Positions 7,272 to 35,591 of a stretch of DNA of 64,000 bases are shown piece by piece. Source of the stretch: Enterococcus wangshanyuanii (lineage in GTDB: Bacteria > Bacillota > Bacilli > Lactobacillales > Enterococcaceae). A program made the translations under genes and the position numbers. Below the pieces are notes generated by a model. It did no database searches. It was given only the letters and a program-made list of their open reading frames with translations, and had not been told where the DNA came from. The DNA lies in the NCBI RefSeq assembly GCF_002197645.1, contig NZ_CP021874.1, positions 558,001 through 622,000 of the forward strand. The letters are read 5' to 3'. The first letter of the stretch is position 1, and every line of letters begins with the position of its first letter.

Positions 7272-7299
7272 GTAGTTGTACTAAAAAAATTAATAAAGG

Positions 7300-7421
7300 T
7301 TCGTCTTCAGGGGCAGGGTGAAATTCCCGACCGGTGGTTATAGTCCACGACCTACTTCTTTTGAAGTAGTTGAATTGGTGAAATTCCAGTACCGACAGTA
7401 AAGTCTGGATAAAGAAGATAG
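7300..7421 (+). ncRNA. FMN riboswitch (RFN element)
   Basis: The conserved RFN landmarks are in order: TCTTCAGGGGCAGGGTGAAA, TTCCCGACCGG, a variable hairpin (CTACTTC/GAAGTAG), GGTGAAATTCCAGTACCGAC, and the closing CAGTAAAGTCTGGAT with AAAGAAGATA. The element binds FMN and turns off downstream riboflavin genes. A 10-bp hairpin (CTTATTTGAA/TTCAAATAAG, 7424-7452) and a strong terminator (7461-7494) follow, so the off state is probably premature termination before ribU. Confidence 0.95.
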
Positions 7422-7460
7422 GGCTTATTTGAATTGGCATTTTTCAAATAAGATAACTCT

Positions 7461-27089: not shown

Positions 27090-27125
27090 AAGAGGCAAAT
27101 CTTATAGTTTTGTCTCTTTGTTTTT
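27090..27125 (+). terminator. Terminator before the aro leader
   Basis: AAGAGGCAAA (27090-27099) pairs with TTTTGTCTCTT (27108-27118), then a T-rich run. Confidence 0.75.
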
Positions 27126-27201
27126 CAATCAAGAATAGTTAGAAGAATAAGAAAATTCAAATAAATATCCTTGAGGTTTTAACCATACACGAAAATAATT
27201 G

Positions 27202-27230
27202 TTGACACATGTAAATTTGAGGTATATACT
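27202..27230 (+). promoter_or_regulatory. Promoter of the aromatic amino acid operon
   Basis: A perfect -35 TTGACA (27202-27207) and TATACT (27225-27230) are separated by exactly 17 bp. Transcription should begin near 27237, about 35 bp before the leader peptide. Confidence 0.85.
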
Positions 27231-27270
27231 GAGAACAATTCTTAAATAAATCAGTTACGGAGTGATTCAT

Positions 27271-27333
27271 ATGACAAGCATGAAGCATAACCAATTACAA
27301 CTGAATAATTATTACTTTAGCTATTTTAGATGA
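27271..27333 (+). CDS. Tyr/Phe-rich leader peptide of the aro operon
   Basis: This short frame encodes 20 residues, MTSMKHNQLQLNNYYFSYFR, then TGA. It has its own ribosome site (CGGAG, about 10 bp before the ATG) and lies between a consensus promoter and tandem hairpins with U-rich tails. Five of the last seven codons are Tyr or Phe, the two amino acids made by the operon downstream (tyrA, pheA). In ribosome-mediated attenuation such codons cause stalling when the charged tRNA is scarce. The peptide itself probably has no function. Confidence 0.85.
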   Translation: MTSMKHNQLQLNNYYFSYFR

Positions 27334-27348
27334 GTTTGTGTTCATGAA

Positions 27349-27513
27349 CATTGTGGATACAAACAGACACGTTTGTATCTATGATGGCTAAGGGATTTTG
27401 AGATGACTTTCAGCCGCGTAGATGAGAAATCTATAGTGGCTTTTATTTTACCTATTTTTTTGCAAGGTGTTCACTGTAGATTTTTCTGAAAATTTACGTG
27501 AACACTTTTTTTG
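27349..27513 (+). promoter_or_regulatory. Aro operon transcription attenuator
   Basis: Three hairpins follow the leader peptide. Hairpin B:C (27349-27386) has a perfect 9-bp core GATACAAAC/GTTTGTATC. T1 (27412-27441) pairs AGCCGCGTAGAT with ATCTATAGTGGCT and is followed by TTTATTTTA. T2 (27467-27505; GTGTTCAC/GTGAACAC core) is followed by seven T. GTTTGT at 27334-27339, just after the leader stop, can compete for ACAAAC of arm B. TGAACA at 27345-27350 can pair with TGTTCA of T2's 5' arm, and ATCTA of arm C with TAGAT of T1. Mutually exclusive pairing is therefore possible; which fold wins under starvation needs a folding calculation. Confidence 0.8.
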
Positions 27514-27542
27514 TTGAAAAGATTGTTAGAGGAGGAGATGAG

Positions 27543-28412
27543 TTGAGCAATAAAATTACAGGAAAAACAAGGTTGGCTGCATTGTTTGCTACACCGGCTC
27601 GGCATAGTGTTTCACCAATGATCCATAATACAGCCTTTCAAGCATTGGGGATCGATGCCGTATATCTAGCTTTTGATGTTGGAACTAGTAACCTTGAAAG
27701 AGCGATTGCTTCAATCAAAGATCTGGATATGCTCGGTGTCAATTTATCAATGCCAAATAAAATTTTAGCGGTTGATTATATGGATGAATTGAGTGAATCC
27801 GCTCGGTTGATCGGGGCGATCAATACGATCAAGAACGACAAGGGTCGACTGATTGGGCATAACACAGACGGCATCGGCTTTTTGAAAAGTCTAAATGATA
27901 TGGATGTCACTATCATCGATCAAAAAATGACTATTCTTGGAGCAGGTGGAGCGGCAGCAGCTATCATAGCACAAGCCGCGCTAGATGGAGTGAATGAAAT
28001 TGCTGTATACAATCGTAAAAGCTCTTCGTATGAAAAAGCCAAGGTGAAATTAAAAACCATCGCTGAAAAGACAGGCTGTAACATTAGCTTGAATGATTTA
28101 GCTGACGAACAAGCCTTGGCTAAAGATATTGAAGAAAGTGTTTTATTATTAAATACCACTTCTGTTGGAATGAAACCATTAGAAGAAGCGACGCCTATTC
28201 AAGATTTTTCAGTTATCCGATCCGATTTAGCAGTCTATGACGCCATTTACACACCGAGAGAAACTGAATTTTTAAAACAAGCACGAATACGCGGTGCACA
28301 GACAGCAAACGGCTTAGGAATGCTGCTTTATCAAGGTGCAGAAGCGTTTGAAATATGGACAGGACAAGAATTGCCTATTGAAATAGTTAAACCCATTATT
28401 GAGAATATATAA
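27543..28412 (+). CDS. aroE: Shikimate dehydrogenase
   Basis: This 289-residue enzyme reduces 3-dehydroshikimate to shikimate with NADPH. The substrate site SVSP (in [11 protein letters not shown]), the catalytic Lys in NLSMPNK, the NTDGIGF motif and the cofactor loop [10 protein letters not shown] are present. GGAGGAG at 27531-27537 selects TTG 27543; the ATG at 27538 runs into a stop after two codons, and the upstream in-frame start lies inside the terminator. It is the first gene of the aro operon and is presumably controlled by the attenuator. Confidence 0.94.
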
Positions 28413-28441: not shown

Positions 28442-29464
28442 ATGATCGTAATCATGAAATCAGAAGCAACAAAAGCACAAATTAAATCAGTAATCGAACG
28501 AGTAAAAAAAGAAGGACTTGAGGTTCATTTAAGCGAAGGAAAAGAACAAACGATCATTGGATTAGTTGGTGATACACGTAAAATGCAGGATGTAGCGTTC
28601 AATAGTTATGATGGGGTAGAAAATGCAGTAAGAATCTCTTTGACCTACAAATTGACAAGTCGTGAGTTTCATCCGGAAAACACGATTGTTGATGTAGATG
28701 GCGTCAAAATTGGTGACGGAAGTATGACAATGATGGCTGGACCTTGCTCGATTGAAGGACTGGACCAAATCCGTGAATGTGCTAGAATCGCTAAAGCTGG
28801 TGGGGCAACTATTTTACGAGGTGGTGCTTTTAAACCAAGAACGTCTCCATACGCATTCCAAGGTTTGGAAGAAGAAGGGTTGAAATACATTCGTCAAGCA
28901 GCAGACGAACTAGACATGAAAGTCATCACAGAAGTAATGGATGAAGCGCATATCGATATGGTTGCTGAATACAGTGACATTTTACAGATCGGTGCTCGAA
29001 ATATGCAAAACTTTAAACTACTAGAAGCTGTTGGGAAAACAGGGAAACCGATTGGTCTGAAACGTGGGATATCTGGTACAATTGATGAGTGGTTGAATGC
29101 TGCCGAATACATTGCAGCGCAAGGTAATTTTAATGTCATTTTCATTGAACGTGGGATTCGGACATATGAAACGGCTACACGAAATACATTAGATTTAAGT
29201 GCAGTACCGCTGATCAAAAAATTAAGTCACTTCCCGATCATTGTCGATCCTAGTCACGGGGTGGGTATTTGGGATCTCGTTCCGCCAATGGCTCGTGCAG
29301 GTGTCGCAGCTGGCGCAGATGGTCTAATCGTTGAAATCCATCCAGATCCGGTCAATGCTTGGTCAGATGGCCCACAATCGCTAAATGAAAAAACATACAT
29401 GCGCATGATGAAAGAAGTGCATATCATGGAAAAAGCAATGAAAGAAATCAATGCATTAGACTAA
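28442..29464 (+). CDS. aroF: 3-deoxy-7-phosphoheptulonate (DAHP) synthase with N-terminal regulatory domain
   Basis: This 340-residue enzyme condenses PEP and erythrose 4-phosphate, the committed step of the shikimate pathway. An N-terminal ferredoxin-like domain (about 1-70, [20 protein letters not shown]) precedes a type I-beta barrel with [29 protein letters not shown] and [17 protein letters not shown]. The T. maritima enzyme with this layout is feedback-inhibited by Tyr and Phe through that domain. It has no chorismate mutase domain, unlike B. subtilis AroA. Symbols differ between species (aroF/aroG). Confidence 0.94.
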
Positions 29465-29533
29465 TTCGAAAAATAGAAGGCAGAATGTTCCAAGGCGGCC
29501 ATTCTTCCAATCAAATACAGGAGTTGAACGAAA

Positions 29534-30595
29534 ATGAAACTTACCGTAACCTTACCAAATCATTCCTATGATTTGACGATTGAAAAAGGCTTGCTGACTG
29601 AAATTGGTCCATGGGCTGCAACTATTTGGTCCCCGCAAAAAGTTGTTATCATTACTGATACGAATGTTCAACCTTTATACGGTGCTCAGGTTGAGACAAG
29701 TTTGAAGAATGCCGGATTTGAAACAGCAACTTTTGTTATTGAGGCTGGTGAACAAAGTAAATCGCTAAAAGTCGCTGCTGATCTATATGATTTTTTAGCA
29801 GAGGAAGGCTTAACTAGAAGCGATGGGATCATTGCCTTAGGTGGGGGTGTGGTCGGTGATTTGGCGGGTTTTGTAGCATCGACTTATATGCGTGGGTTGC
29901 ACTTTTTACAAGTGCCGACTACTTTGTTGGCTCAAGTTGACAGCAGTATCGGCGGTAAAACGGCTGTCAATACATCTAAAGCAAAAAATCTAGTTGGAAC
30001 CTTTGCTCAGCCAGATGGCGTGTTGATCGATCCAAATACCTTGAATACATTGGAACTCAGACGTGTTCAAGAAGGAATCTCCGAAATCATCAAATCAGCA
30101 GCAATTGCTGATAAACAGCTTTGGCAGCAATTAGCAGCTTTAAAAGATGAACATGATTTACTAGTACATGCGACTGAAATTATTGCAGCTTGCTGTAAGA
30201 TCAAGCGAAAAGTTGTGGAGGAAGATGAATTAGATCATGGAGTGCGTCTGCTACTAAACTTTGGACATACCATAGGTCATGCTTTGGAAAATACAGCTGG
30301 ATATGGAAATTTGACTCATGGCGAAGGCGTAGCTATTGGGATGCTTCAAATCACTCGTATAGCAGAGGAAAAAGGGTTGACTCCAGTTGGAACAACTGAG
30401 CAATTGAGCCAAATGATTCAAAAATTTCATTTACCTATTTCATCTGAAAATTGGGACAAACAAGCGCTGTATAATGCGCTGACCCATGATAAAAAGACAC
30501 GCGGCGGAAAAATCAACATTATTTTATTAGAAGCGATCGGCGAAGCTAAAATCGTTCGTATACCAATTGAAGAAATGAAGAGTTATTTAGATTAG
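29534..30595 (+). CDS. aroB: 3-dehydroquinate synthase
   Basis: This 353-residue NAD+- and metal-dependent enzyme closes DAHP into 3-dehydroquinate. GGGVVGDLAGF binds NAD, QVDSSIGGKTAVN carries catalytic Lys residues, and metal ligands lie in SEIIKSA, GHTIGHALE and HGEGVAIGM. All are intact, unlike the related protein at 19857. It is preceded by a 69-bp spacer after aroF. Confidence 0.96.
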   Translation: MKLTVTLPNHSYDLTIEKGLLTEIGPWAATIWSPQKVVIITDTNVQPLYGAQVETSLKNAGFETATFVIEAGEQSKSLKVAADLYDFLAEEGLTRSDGIIALGGGVVGDLAGFVASTYMRGLHFLQVPTTLLAQVDSSIGGKTAVNTSKAKNLVGTFAQPDGVLIDPNTLNTLELRRVQEGISEIIKSAAIADKQLWQQLAALKDEHDLLVHATEIIAACCKIKRKVVEEDELDHGVRLLLNFGHTIGHALENTAGYGNLTHGEGVAIGMLQITRIAEEKGLTPVGTTEQLSQMIQKFHLPISSENWDKQALYNALTHDKKTRGGKINIILLEAIGEAKIVRIPIEEMKSYLD

Positions 30596-30607
30596 GGAGG
30601 AATAAAT

Positions 30608-31774
30608 ATGCGCTTTATTACAGCGGGAGAATCGCACGGACCAGAATTAACTGCAATCATTGAAGGCTTACCAGCGGGATTACCTTTATCACCTGAAGAT
30701 ATTAATTTCGAATTAGCAAGAAGACAAGGCGGCTATGGACGCGGCGGCAGAATGCTGATCGAAAAAGACCAAGTGAAAATTACATCCGGCATTCGGCATG
30801 GTAAAACTCTTGGCTCACCAGTGACCCTTGTCGTTGAAAACAAAGACTGGAAAAACTGGACATCTGTCATGTCCATTGAAGAAGTCACAGAAAAAGAAAA
30901 GAAAATTCGTCGTGTTAATAAACCAAGACCAGGACATGCAGATTTGGTTGGCGGGATCAAATATCAGCATGATGATCTTAGAAATGTTTTAGAGCGCTCC
31001 TCAGCACGTGAAACAACGATGCGTGTCGCGATCGGTGCTGTTGCCAAAAAGTTATTGAAAGAGCTGGATATTGAGGTAGCTGGACATGTGGCTGTTTTGG
31101 GCGGGATCAGAGCCGAAATCCCGGAAAACCTGACTGTTTCTGAAATTCGTGAGCGCTCCGAACAATCAGACGTTCGAGTGTTAGATCCTGAGGTTGAAGA
31201 ACAAATGAGAAATTTGATCGATCAAACTAAGAAAAATGGGGATACGATCGGTGGAGTTGTTGAAGTCATTGTCGGCGGCGTGCCAATCGGCTTAGGTAGT
31301 TATGTACAATGGGACCGGAAATTAGATGCTAAAATTGCTCAAGCTGTTACAAGTATCAATGCATTTAAGGGGGTTGAATTTGGTATCGGTTTTGAAATGG
31401 GGAATCGCCCTGGCAGTCAAGTGATGGATGAAATCATCTGGAACAAAGAAACCGGCTATACTCGGACATCCAATAATCTAGGTGGCTTTGAAGGTGGAAT
31501 GACCAATGGGATGCCGATTATTGTCAGAGGGGTGATGAAGCCGATCCCGACGCTCTACAAGCCATTACAAAGTGTCAATATCGATACGAAGGAGCCGTAC
31601 AAGGCTAGTGTGGAACGTTCTGACAGTACCGCTGTACCAGCTGCCAGCGTTGTTTGCGAAGCGGTCGTTGCAACAGAAGTTGCTCAAGCAATGCTTGAAA
31701 AATTTGGCAGTGATGCATTTGAACAAATGAAAGAAGAAGTTTCAGCTTATCGTCGTTATACTCAATCGTTTTAA
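30608..31774 (+). CDS. aroC: Chorismate synthase
   Basis: This 388-residue FMN-dependent enzyme converts EPSP to chorismate. Signature blocks are [18 protein letters not shown] at the N-terminus, [25 protein letters not shown] and [19 protein letters not shown]. The length matches the Gram-positive family. GGGAGG precedes the ATG, 12 bp after aroB. It probably needs a flavin reductase encoded elsewhere. Confidence 0.97.
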
Positions 31775-31802
31775 TCAAAAAATAAATGGAGAGTGACACG
31801 AT

Positions 31803-32900
31803 ATGAAAAAAAATGTAGTAATTGTTGGATTAGGACTCATTGGTAGTTCATTAGCGTTGTGTATAAAAAAAATGCATCCATCAGTAACAATCATTGGTTT
31901 AGATAAAGAAGAAACATCAATGACTTTTGCGTTAAAAAGGCAGATCATCGATCAAAAAGCAGATTCATTAAAAGAAGCAGTGGTCGATGCGGATATAATT
32001 TTTTTATGCGCTCCAGTTAAAAGTACTCTAACACAACTAGAGATTTTGAGTCACCTAGATCTTAAAAAGAATGTGGTGATCACAGATGTCGGCAGCACGA
32101 AAAAGGAAATCGTTGCTAAAGCTCAATCATTAGGGTTAAACTCTTTTATAGGCGGTCATCCAATGGCTGGTTCGCACAAGTCAGGTGTAACAGCAGCTGA
32201 TGAAGATTTATTTGAGAATGCCTATTATATCCTTACGAACTCAGATCAAGCGAACGCACAGAATGTTCGCCAATTGCAGGAATTACTGCAGGGAACTAGA
32301 GCGAAATTTGTTGTTTTAACAGCGAAAGAACATGATCAAATCACAGGAATGCTTAGTCACCTTCCGCATATTATTGCTGCAGGCTTAGTGAACCAAAGTA
32401 AGCAATTTAATGAAGAACACCCTCGTTCTAAGCAATTAGCTGCAGGTGGCTTCAGAGATATTACAAGAATTGCTTCATCAGATCCGCAAATGTGGACGGA
32501 TATTTTATTAAGTAATAAAGAAGCTCTGTTGGACTTGATGCATCTATGGCAAAAGGAAATGACACAAGTGGCTGACTGGATCGCTTCTGAGAATTCTGAA
32601 GCCATCTTTCAATTTTTCTTTGAGGCAAAAGAGACAAGAAATCAGCTACCTGTCCATAAAGAAGGGGCAATTCCGGCATTCCATGATTTATTTGTGGATG
32701 TACCGGATGTTCCAGGTGTGATCGCTGAAATTACCGGCTTATTAGGTAAAGCTGAACTTTCCCTAATTAATTTAAAAATTCTTGAAACGCGAGAAGATAT
32801 CTATGGTATCCTACAATTGACTTTTAAACGACAAAAAGATGTAGAAAAAGCAAAAAAATATATAGAAAAACAAACAAGTTACCTGTGCTATGAAAAATAA
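31803..32900 (+). CDS. tyrA: Prephenate dehydrogenase with C-terminal ACT domain
   Basis: This 365-residue enzyme oxidises prephenate to 4-hydroxyphenylpyruvate, the tyrosine branch. It has the NAD-binding motif VGLGLIGSSLAL, the substrate motif GGHPMAGSHKSG and HDQITGMLSHLPHIIA. A C-terminal ACT domain (about 295-365, DVPDVPGVIAEITGLLGKAE) probably senses tyrosine. Its presence fits the Tyr codons of the leader peptide. No chorismate mutase domain is fused. Confidence 0.95.
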   Translation: MKKNVVIVGLGLIGSSLALCIKKMHPSVTIIGLDKEETSMTFALKRQIIDQKADSLKEAVVDADIIFLCAPVKSTLTQLEILSHLDLKKNVVITDVGSTKKEIVAKAQSLGLNSFIGGHPMAGSHKSGVTAADEDLFENAYYILTNSDQANAQNVRQLQELLQGTRAKFVVLTAKEHDQITGMLSHLPHIIAAGLVNQSKQFNEEHPRSKQLAAGGFRDITRIASSDPQMWTDILLSNKEALLDLMHLWQKEMTQVADWIASENSEAIFQFFFEAKETRNQLPVHKEGAIPAFHDLFVDVPDVPGVIAEITGLLGKAELSLINLKILETREDIYGILQLTFKRQKDVEKAKKYIEKQTSYLCYEK

Positions 32901-32906
32901 GTATGA

Positions 32907-34217
<1,311 letters not shown>

Positions 34218-34229
34218 GCGGTGATCCAA

Positions 34230-34730
34230 ATGAAAGGAATTATTTTAATAGGATTCATGGGTTCAGGCAAAACGACCGTCGGAAAATTGTTAGCTGAAAA
34301 AACAGGAATGCAGCACATTGATTTTGACGAGCAGTTAGTCGTTGAACTGGGGATGTCGATCCAGGAGTATTTTGATCTTTATGGGGAAGAAGTTTTTAGA
34401 GATCAAGAAACAAAATTGTTAAAACAGTTTGTTGATCACGAACAGGTCATTTCGACCGGCGGCGGAATTGTTTTGAGGTCAGAAAACCGCCAATTATTGA
34501 AACAATTGACGCCAGTCGTTTATCTAAAAACAGAACCGGAAACTTTTCTTTCTCGGTTAAAAGAAGATCAGGAAAATGTACGGCCTTTGATCTTATCGAA
34601 AACAGCAGAGGAGATCCAACAAATTTTTGAACCACGGATTCCTTTTTATGAAGAAAGTGCAAGCCTGATTATTCCGACAAGTGATCGAACACCGGAAAGC
34701 ATTGTTCAAGAGATTTTAGAAAAAATATAA
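34230..34730 (+). CDS. aroK: Shikimate kinase
   Basis: This 166-residue kinase makes shikimate 3-phosphate. It has Walker A GFMGSGKTT, the shikimate-binding DFDEQ and STGGGIV, and the lid Arg near ENVRPLIL. The open frame reaches back to GTG 34221, but AGGCGGTGA there is the ribosome site, so ATG 34230 is chosen. It is 12 bp after aroA. Confidence 0.94.
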   Translation: MKGIILIGFMGSGKTTVGKLLAEKTGMQHIDFDEQLVVELGMSIQEYFDLYGEEVFRDQETKLLKQFVDHEQVISTGGGIVLRSENRQLLKQLTPVVYLKTEPETFLSRLKEDQENVRPLILSKTAEEIQQIFEPRIPFYEESASLIIPTSDRTPESIVQEILEKI

Positions 34731-34742
34731 GTAGGTGAACAA

Positions 34743-35591
34743 ATGAGAGTGGGTTTTTTAGGTCCAGAAGCTTCTTTTACACACAATGCAGCAAAAACAG
34801 CTTTTCCAAAAGAAGAATTAGTTCCGTTCCATTCAATTCCGGCCTGTATCAAAGGAGTTGAATTTGGCGAAGTCGATCTCGGTGTTGTACCAATCGAAAA
34901 TACCATTGAAGGCTCTGTCAATACAACAGTAGATTATCTATTTCATCAATCAACGATTCCAGTTGGCGGTGAAATCGTTCTGCCGATCTATCAGCAGTTT
35001 ATGGTTGCTAAATCAAATGAACAAACTTGGCAGGAAACAACACGAATTTTATCTCATCCGCAGGCGTTAGCTCAATCACAAGAGTTTATCCGGCTGTATT
35101 TTCCGAATGCTCGTTTAGAAGCAACGCCTTCAACTGCTTATGCTGCGAGTTTTGTGGCTGACCATCCAGAGCAAAAAATGGCAGCGATCGCACCGAAAAA
35201 ATCTGCCGAAACATATAACCTTGCTGTTGTTGGAGAGAACATTCAAGATGTCGCTACCAATCAGACACGTTTTTGGATCTTGGGTGCTGAAAACATCCAT
35301 TTACCGCTAACGATCGAAAACCAAAAGATGACCATTGCGGTGACGATGCCAAATAATATGCCGGGTGCGCTCCATAAAGCACTTTCCGTATTTAGTTGGC
35401 GAGAAATCGATCTGAGTAAAATCGAATCTAGACCTTTAAAAACGACCTTAGGGGAGTATTTCTTTCTAATCGACATCAATATCCAGCAACCACGACCATT
35501 GATCGACTATGCACTTGAGGAACTGCGTTTAATGGGAGGAACGGTTAAAGTGTTTGGTAACTACAATGTTCATTTGATAGAAGGTGTATAA
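34743..35591 (+). CDS. pheA: Prephenate dehydratase with ACT domain
   Basis: This 282-residue enzyme converts prephenate to phenylpyruvate, the phenylalanine branch. The catalytic motif TRF is in TNQTRFWIL, and a C-terminal ACT domain (about 200-280) has the ESRP effector motif in KIESRPLKTTLGEYFFLID, for Phe feedback inhibition. There is no fused chorismate mutase, unlike E. coli PheA. The last gene of the operon; a terminator follows. Confidence 0.95.
   Translation: MRVGFLGPEASFTHNAAKTAFPKEELVPFHSIPACIKGVEFGEVDLGVVPIENTIEGSVNTTVDYLFHQSTIPVGGEIVLPIYQQFMVAKSNEQTWQETTRILSHPQALAQSQEFIRLYFPNARLEATPSTAYAASFVADHPEQKMAAIAPKKSAETYNLAVVGENIQDVATNQTRFWILGAENIHLPLTIENQKMTIAVTMPNNMPGALHKALSVFSWREIDLSKIESRPLKTTLGEYFFLIDINIQQPRPLIDYALEELRLMGGTVKVFGNYNVHLIEGV

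Follow-up and report, generated by a model that had tools for sequence, protein, structure and literature searches.

A predicted Tyr/Phe leader-peptide attenuator before an Enterococcus aro operon and its likely kinship with Trp leaders at the trpB motif

The aro operon and its leader region

The window analyzed here is a 64-kb stretch of Enterococcus wangshanyuanii DNA. Within it lies an eight-gene operon in the order aroE, DAHP synthase, aroB, aroC, tyrA, aroA, aroK, and pheA (Table 1). These identities indicate Tyr and Phe as the end products; trp genes are absent from the operon. The longest aroE frame opens at GTG 27498, inside terminator T2, and the TTG at 27543 is the likelier start. 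The same window carries an FMN riboswitch (RF00050, 101.7 bits) at 7299-7423 on the + strand.

A preliminary description of this DNA had proposed that the region before aroE is a Tyr/Phe leader-peptide attenuator, and its landmarks were all located: the promoter, a 20-codon leader with its own ribosome site and a Tyr/Phe-rich end, a 16-bp hairpin (27349-27364 with 27371-27386), the U-tailed hairpin T1, and terminator T2. Tyr/Phe codons occupy positions -7, -6, -5, -3, and -2, counted back from the stop. GTTTGT (27334-27339) does pair with ACAAAC; the two lie in a 14-bp helix that joins 27334-27347 to 27351-27364. Folding of the 307-nt leader gives -82.6 kcal/mol; shuffled versions average -61.1 (z, -4.8), and none of 100 reaches so low a value. 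Within the leader, f1 resembles d and e1 resembles e2. In the minimum-energy fold, UCAGUU (27251-27256), which precedes the ribosome site of the leader, forms a helix with AACUGA (27299-27304) in the conserved QLNN codons, a pairing that may tune leader translation; QLNN recurs in both the Trp and Tyr leader types described below.

Table 1. Positions of the promoter, leader, RNA segments, and genes in the window
Feature	Position	Strand	Evidence or remark
Sigma-70-type promoter, TTGACA-17-TATACT	27202..27230	+	11 of 12 consensus matches; consensus match only
GGAG, ribosome site of leader	27259..27262	+	Sequence
Leader peptide MTSMKHNQLQLNNYYFSYFR-stop, 20 codons, ATG 27271 to TGA 27333	27271..27333	+	Ends YYFSYFR-stop
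Segment 1, leader codons pairing with d (27377-27391) without a ribosome	27317..27331	+	Fold; 98.9 and 99.1% of cells paired in 66 aligned leaders
Segment a, directly 3' of stop; pairs with b (27351-27364)	27334..27347	+	93.1% of cells paired; 10 of 14 pairs changed on both sides
Segment b; partner a or c/d (27371-27386)	27349..27364	+	b:c helix, 94.1% of cells
Segments c and d (d, 27377-27391); d partners segment 1, b, or e1 (antiterminator)	27371..27391	+	Folding and alignment
Hairpin T1: e1 27412-27423, f1 27429-27441, U-rich tail 27442-27449	27412..27449	+	-13.9 kcal/mol; d:e1, 92.7% of cells
f1 side of proposed relay helix, 16 bp with e2 (27471-27486)	27424..27439	+	Fold with ribosome at codon -3; cognate-specific complementarity
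Terminator T2: hairpin 27466-27506, U-tract 27507-27512; e2, 27471-27486	27466..27512	+	-18.1 kcal/mol
aroE, first gene, TTG start behind AGGAGGAG	27543..28412	+	TIGR00507 above cut-off
DAHP synthase, aroB, aroC, tyrA, aroA, aroK, and pheA, rest of operon	28442..35591	+	Gene identification

Leader types and the genes behind them

The element is neither confined to this operon nor to this genome. In a DNA search, 48 of the 60 genomes gave a match, with the own genome counted, and 34 of these did so at two or more places. The own genome holds at least three copies, before the aro operon and two ABC transporters. The second copy (C1:2687324) encodes the leader MTYLINPQLNKAYFSYFR-stop, of the Tyr/Phe type, 5' of an ABC substrate-binding protein; the third (C1:507885), found by RF04312, has a leader ending NSWQNWRR-stop, 5' of another ABC transporter substrate-binding protein. 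The preliminary description regarded the sensing of two amino acids in one peptide with two terminators as unusual. The two terminators and the Tyr/Phe leader are real; the arrangement is no isolated case and represents one specificity of a widespread scaffold.

With four seeds, nhmmer found 256 sites (223 distinct cores) in 223 of 285 loci; the seeds included leader codons, and this set is therefore not independent evidence for the leader. The 62 loci without a match comprised 47 from an exact-pattern scan, 9 members missed by the seeds, and 6 chance matches. Shine-Dalgarno (SD)-like sites precede most leaders of the set. Trp stands near the C terminus in 78 of the distinct cores and Tyr/Phe in 145. 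Downstream genes, labeled by clustering and resemblance to the genes of the window, follow the codons. Behind the 77 Trp leaders with a downstream open reading frame (ORF) in the sequence, the first ORF is a transporter in 76 cases, trpB in 1, and aro in none; behind 140 such Tyr/Phe leaders it is a transporter in 64, an aro gene in 73 (59 aroE, 6 DAHP synthase, 4 aroB, 3 aroC, and 1 aroK), another gene in 3, and trp in none. The trpB genes of loci L159 and L277 were confirmed by NCBIfam. Where aro operons are split, separate copies lie 5' of separate genes and the element accompanies the genes: E. florum has four Tyr/Phe copies, before DAHP synthase, aroK, aroC, and an ABC transporter (L032, L133, L102, and L039).

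Cross-genome alignment, which the preliminary description had named as a check, bore out the conservation of the aromatic codons. In 100 distinct Tyr/Phe-type leaders, Tyr/Phe occurs at -7, -6, -5, -3, and -2 in 82 to 100% (-6, 100%; -3, 96%), and 74 Trp leaders have Trp at -6 in 91% and at -3 in 78%. All 47 aligned Trp leaders keep the first UGG, a codon that takes part in none of the helices counted; this suggests that the codon itself is under selection. Four Trp leaders (L258, L262, L265, and L093, the last from Tetragenococcus solitarius) end TWQSWYKTLY-stop or similarly, the usual RR-stop end being replaced and the stop lying further downstream.

Conserved helices and co-change of codons with segment d

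Twelve of the 223 sites were dropped for want of the d pattern and three more for want of T1. Alignments comprised 47 of 55 Trp and 66 of 72 Tyr cluster representatives, 14 longer or odd ones being left out by choice (L189 by a length cut). Paired cells in the Trp alignment amounted to 89.2% for 1:d (about 99% in Tyr), 95.0% for a:b, 97.1% for b:c, 85.8% for d:e1, and 92.3% for e1:f1 (78.8% in Tyr; other Tyr values are in Table 1). Changes on both sides of a pair exceeded the column-shuffle mean in all six structures, and slid controls gave far lower percentages paired in each. A slid control did equal the both-side changes for Trp a:b + d:e1 and Tyr b:c + e1:f1, and further pair types in Trp a:b + d:e1 were unremarkable (94 of 500 shuffles as high). 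Covariation in the alignments is solid for 1:d + a:b + e1:f1, with 14 (Trp) and 19 (Tyr) both-side changed pairs against 7.0 and 9.7 in shuffles, and thin for d:e1, with such changes in 4 of 12 pairs (Trp) and 2 of 12 (Tyr). The d:e1 helix beats shuffles at P ≤ 0.05 in 98% of Tyr and 84% of Trp representatives and shows no preference for its own partner over same-type swaps (24 of 49 Tyr; 25 of 37 Trp).

Segment 1 of Tyr/Phe leaders binds its own d at -19.4 kcal/mol and a Trp-type d at -8.3; for Trp leaders, the values are -15.9 with their own d and -11.6 with the Tyr/Phe-type d. In the leaders of a distant class of the phylum (see below), binding to the own d was -17.1 for Phe and -15.5 for His (n = 5) and not specific for Leu (n = 2). 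By sequence comparison, the specifier codons of segment 1 and segment d change together.

Ribosome position and proposed mechanism

Antiterminator probability was computed as that of d:e1, in a transcript ending at e1 with the ribosome placed at each codon, the folding being at equilibrium and the edge of the ribosome an assumed value. For an edge of 12 nt, Tyr leaders averaged 0.74 to 0.77 at codons -7 to -3 versus 0.31 at the stop, and Trp leaders averaged 0.56 to 0.60 at -6 to -3 versus 0.23. Codon -3 exceeded the stop by >0.1 in 62 of 72 Tyr and 42 of 55 Trp clusters, the reverse occurring in 1 and 3. A 10-nt edge gave the switch in 58 Tyr and 41 Trp clusters (reverse, 2 and 3), and with a 14-nt edge it was weaker (52 of 72 and 36 of 55; reverse, 5 and 8). 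The regulatory codons of both types fall in this fold-predicted window, with -2 at its edge. By a looser measure, the best of codons -8 to -3 exceeded the stop in 17 of 20 leaders of the distant class and the reverse in none; the computed window precedes the His codons of L292 and L293, and the switch is absent from the computation for L296, L297, and L307. Against the model, d:e1 without a ribosome stays at 0.63 for the window (L001) and 0.98 for L153.

These computations suggest the following mechanism. Without a ribosome, segment 1 would pair with d around the a:b hairpin, leaving e1 free, and the terminators would form. When amino acids are plentiful, a ribosome at the stop would cover a, b would pair with c/d, and e1 would again be free for termination. 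When Tyr or Phe is short, a ribosome stalled at -7 to -3 would cover segment 1 but not a, and a:b would form; d, thereby freed, would capture e1 as the antiterminator. The released f1 would then capture e2, opening T2 as well, and the operon would be transcribed. The signal sensed would be charged tRNA-Tyr and tRNA-Phe, read by the ribosome.

Folding with and without the ribosome-covered bases, as proposed beforehand, thus favors the antiterminator at -7 to -3 and disfavors it at the stop. The preliminary description had the stalled ribosome covering GTTTGT; the folding model reverses this, a stall at -7 to -3 leaving segment a free and a ribosome at the stop covering it. Its expectation that stalling gives readthrough agrees with the folding, by a route that frees segment a rather than covering it. 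Its core idea, Tyr/Phe attenuation of the aro operon, is strongly supported by comparison and folding. Features of ribosome-mediated attenuators recur here: a leader ORF with a ribosome site and cognate codons near its 3' end, conserved helices that make terminator and antiterminator mutually exclusive, and stalling that, in the folding computation, favors the antiterminator. The leader, its codons, the helices, the co-change of codons and d, and the gene context are established at the level of comparison, and the stall window is a computed one; from these we infer that stalling occurs, the order of folding, and the relay. We conclude that the element is very probably a ribosome-read leader-peptide transcription attenuator sensing charged tRNA-Tyr/Phe, one specificity of a shared scaffold.

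A possible relay to the second terminator

With the ribosome at -3 and the transcript ending inside T2, the minimum-energy fold of the window consists of a:b, d:e1, and a 16-bp helix of 27424-27439 with 27471-27486. That helix persists with the ribosome at the stop because f2 has not yet been made. The comparison covered the 86 of 127 cluster representatives with T2 (49 Tyr and 37 Trp). The own f1:e2 outscored the mean of same-type swaps in 46 of 49 Tyr and 28 of 37 Trp representatives and reached a shuffled P of ≤0.05 in 69 and 51%, respectively; own-partner preference was absent for d:e2 (20 of 49 Tyr; 19 of 37 Trp) and e1:e2 (22 of 49; 14 of 37). Computed f1:e2 values when e2 had been made were 0.60 and 0.35 for Tyr types (26 of 49 up and 4 down), a moderate switching, and 0.31 and 0.24 for Trp types (9 of 37 up and 2 down), which barely switch. 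The T1 U-tract is present in 58 of 69 Tyr leaders before aro genes, 7 of 55 Tyr leaders before transporters, and 43 of 75 Trp leaders before transporters. Among the 48 Tyr-transporter sites without it by our own measure, 41 have T2 and 7 have neither. Most T1 hairpins of Tyr-transporter leaders thus lack a U-tract, and T1 can therefore hardly be the terminator there.

If the attenuator were an ordinary one, T2 would serve just as a reserve terminator and the f1:e2 match would be a remnant of T1 duplication. This reading would accord with the likeness of f1 to d and of e1 to e2 in the window and with the slight computed switching in Trp types. The preference for the own f1:e2, not shared by d:e2 or e1:e2, and the Tyr-transporter sites that have T2 behind a T1 without a U-tract argue against it, and we regard it as unlikely. 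We hold the relay through f1:e2 to be likely in Tyr types; it may also operate in Trp types. For contact with the second terminator, the preliminary description had pointed to TGAACA (27345-27350), which lies in a loop that is variable in the alignment of relatives; pairing of the T1 3' arm with the T2 5' arm is the better-supported link.

Trp leaders beside the trpB motif

In a low-threshold Rfam scan of 27100-27600, the window scored 59.4 bits against RF02863 (sRNA_2410; cut-off, 61) and 36.6 bits against RF04312 (trpB motif; cut-off, 59) and thus lies below both cut-offs; its paralogues score 146.7 bits (the Tyr-transporter copy, RF02863) and 59.5 bits (C1:507885, RF04312). The accessible part of PMC11109978 places the trpB motif among strong riboswitch candidates and counts >900 representatives of it, from Firmicutes and Fusobacteria, which mostly precede an uncharacterized ABC transporter. 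The motif's match in the window, 27350-27451, begins 17 nt after the leader stop, and the stop ends 10 to 22 nt before the match in 31 of 31 matches measured. The RF04312 model therefore contains no mini-ORF and offers an independent test of the leader.

In 98 related genomes, 93 RF04312 matches were found and 92 were examined for a mini-ORF. A Trp-codon mini-ORF with an SD sequence lies beside all 72 matches of ≥45 bits, with 1.1 expected from shuffles: 35 of 35 at ≥59 bits, 25 of 25 at 50 to 59, and 12 of 12 at 45 to 50 (shuffles, 0.5, 0.4, and 0.2). Matches at 40 to 45 bits had 9 Trp, 3 Tyr/Phe, and 3 no leaders, and those at <40 bits had 1, 3, and 1. The same RNA switch with swapped codons appears to explain the published trpB motif in the genomes examined. 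Leaderless matches (L155, L156, L280, L282, L283, L285, L294, L295, and L311) were read as chance terminators and rejected as members. In an even sample of 398 genomes of the phylum, with Fusobacteria outside it, RF04312 occurred in only 5, of which 2 were read as chance; the class is therefore patchy.

sRNA_2410 of E. faecium is described as a small RNA of 195 nt with two transcripts (PMC5593968, seen in part). RF02863 matches 27317-27497 of the window, and its best match in the own genome is the Tyr-transporter leader, which it fits best, through the T2 U-tract; sRNA_2410 is therefore probably the terminated Tyr-transporter leader.

Transporter ligands

The 140 substrate-binding proteins behind Trp (76) and Tyr (64) leaders fall into two clades separated by one change (FastTree split support, 99). 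The closest solved structures are 3lft (Trp type), an S. pneumoniae protein according to the part available of PMC9382623, and 6hni (Tyr type). Trp is bound in SP1069 of S. pneumoniae, probably identical with 3lft, and Tyr in CD0873 (6HNI), with Gln-284 versus Tyr-279 as the deciding residue (PMC6816091, consulted in part). This position holds Gln in 76 of 76 Trp-type and Tyr in 64 of 64 Tyr-type proteins, matching the leader type in 140 of 140; the split is one evolutionary event, and it therefore confirms the assignment rather than supplying many independent trials. Glu-263 of CD0873 was rejected as a shared ligand residue (Ser in 60, Ala in 2, Glu in 1, and Trp in 1 of 64 Tyr-type proteins), and in these sequences only the Tyr-279/Gln-284 position fits the leader type.

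Other specificities in a distant class

RF04312 also matched in a distant class of the phylum, that of genome G416, in 12 of 291 genomes at the class level and 12 of 59 at the family level, none above the cut-off; the likeness of the relatives' loci to Terrisporobacter (L076) leads us to guess that the class is Clostridia. Besides L155, 28 of 31 matches follow a leader enriched in codons of a single kind (26 found by script and L306 and L290 by eye; the codon class of each is a reader's judgment, and the count is uncorrected for chance). The three others, all ≤38.6 bits, look like chance. His leaders read EFHHHR-stop before the hisZ-like gene of L296 and MHHHH-stop before hisS of L314, Leu leaders NNLLLLANLR-stop before SNF carriers, a Phe leader QFFFNSQFR-stop before an ABC permease, and a Tyr leader MYYFSYFS-stop before a BrnQ-like carrier. 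Four loci (L305, L308, L313, and L315) have Val-Val-Phe instead of a Phe run. BrnQ-like carriers (PF05525) stand behind a Tyr leader at L299 and L076, which, at the sequence level, suggests Tyr/Phe rather than branched-chain substrates for them. The carriers behind Leu-run leaders at L298 (SNF by Pfam), L302, L306, and L309 (by resemblance) are a lead for Leu transport.

Alternative explanations

A TnaC-like arrest peptide, in which nascent YFSYFR or WQNWRR acts together with a small-molecule ligand to halt the ribosome, would fit the very conserved C-terminal residues and the QLNN of both types. Against this, N termini are variable, distant leaders carry unrelated ends (HHHR, LLLLANLR, and FFFNSQFR) on the same RNA, and pairing with d accounts for much of the conservation at the end; we consider such a peptide very unlikely.

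Even less probable is a riboswitch or protein-bound leader, in which the RNA itself would recognize an amino acid or protein and the mini-ORF would be there by chance, despite the strong conserved structure and the published label of the trpB motif. On a constant hairpin scaffold, the codons vary according to which genes are regulated, and the available text of PMC11109978 itself leaves a classic attenuator possible. A ligand riboswitch was set aside on the Trp mini-ORF found beside every RF04312 match of ≥45 bits.

T-boxes are usual in this phylum, and TRAP-controlled leaders have about 11 GAG/TAG repeats. Control of the operon by either can be dismissed almost outright, even though S. suis trpX uses a T-box (PMC9382623, in part): as the preliminary description had noted, the leader bears no T-box hallmark, Rfam giving no T-box match at the gathering cut-off in the window and none up to an E value of 10 in 27100-27600; TrpBP (PF02081) was not found in the own genome by a search that does find B. 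subtilis TrpBP; and the longest GAG/TAG run with 2- to 3-nt spacers in 27237-27543 is 3.

Relation to known systems

Aromatic regulation in low-GC Gram-positive bacteria is reportedly the subject of a 2003 FEMS study. A literature search, mostly outside subscription papers and partly on incomplete texts, returned no paper that describes Tyr/Phe or Trp leaders from Lactobacillales, a shared scaffold, or an attenuator function for the trpB motif, and a term search for such leaders in the accessible text of PMC3616900 gave nothing.

The enterococcal element shares with the E. coli trp and other attenuators (trp, his, and pheA; PMC1183508, in part) a short leader, regulatory codons, exclusive hairpins, and a decision made by ribosome position. 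It differs from them, as described there, in having one scaffold with several specificities, Gram-positive hosts, a specificity change matched in d, and the additional alternative helices 1:d, a:b, b:cd, d:e1, e1:f1, f1:e2, and e2:f2. The trpB motif, in the part seen of PMC11109978, has the same b:c hairpin and a terminator with the antiterminator in its right shoulder, but its model begins after the leader stop and ends at T1. Leader peptides are likewise found in Firmicutes, with His runs before hisS/hisZ paralogues or his operons and Leu-rich runs before ilv-leu; the papers concerned (PMC2965389, PMC9413887, and PMC5794164) treat single specificities, and the parts covered mention neither a Trp or Tyr/Phe version nor a scaffold common to several. 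His and Leu leaders in Firmicutes were known one by one. The T-box, too, has one scaffold, a swappable specifier codon, and a terminator/antiterminator output, but it binds tRNA directly, whereas here a translating ribosome would read the codon.

Implications

We think it fairly likely that Lactobacillales and the distant class have one codon-swappable class of attenuator (Trp, Tyr/Phe, Phe, Leu, and His) in which d coevolves with the codons, that this class explains the trpB candidate and sRNA_2410 and predicts transporter ligands, and that its tandem form relays to the second terminator by a domino of helices. This is held slightly less firmly than it might be because d:e1 covariation is thin and two His leaders lie off the computed window. 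If it is true, an orphan riboswitch candidate with >900 published representatives would become a ribosome-read switch for which no ligand search is needed. Leader codons would annotate transporters, separating Tyr from Trp ABC systems and marking BrnQ-like and SNF carriers as seemingly for Tyr, Phe, or Leu, and the tandem-hairpin relay would be a new way of carrying the ribosome's decision further downstream. The element would then be a Gram-positive counterpart of the T-box, one scaffold re-aimed by codon swap, and a system in which to study how regulatory RNAs change specificity.
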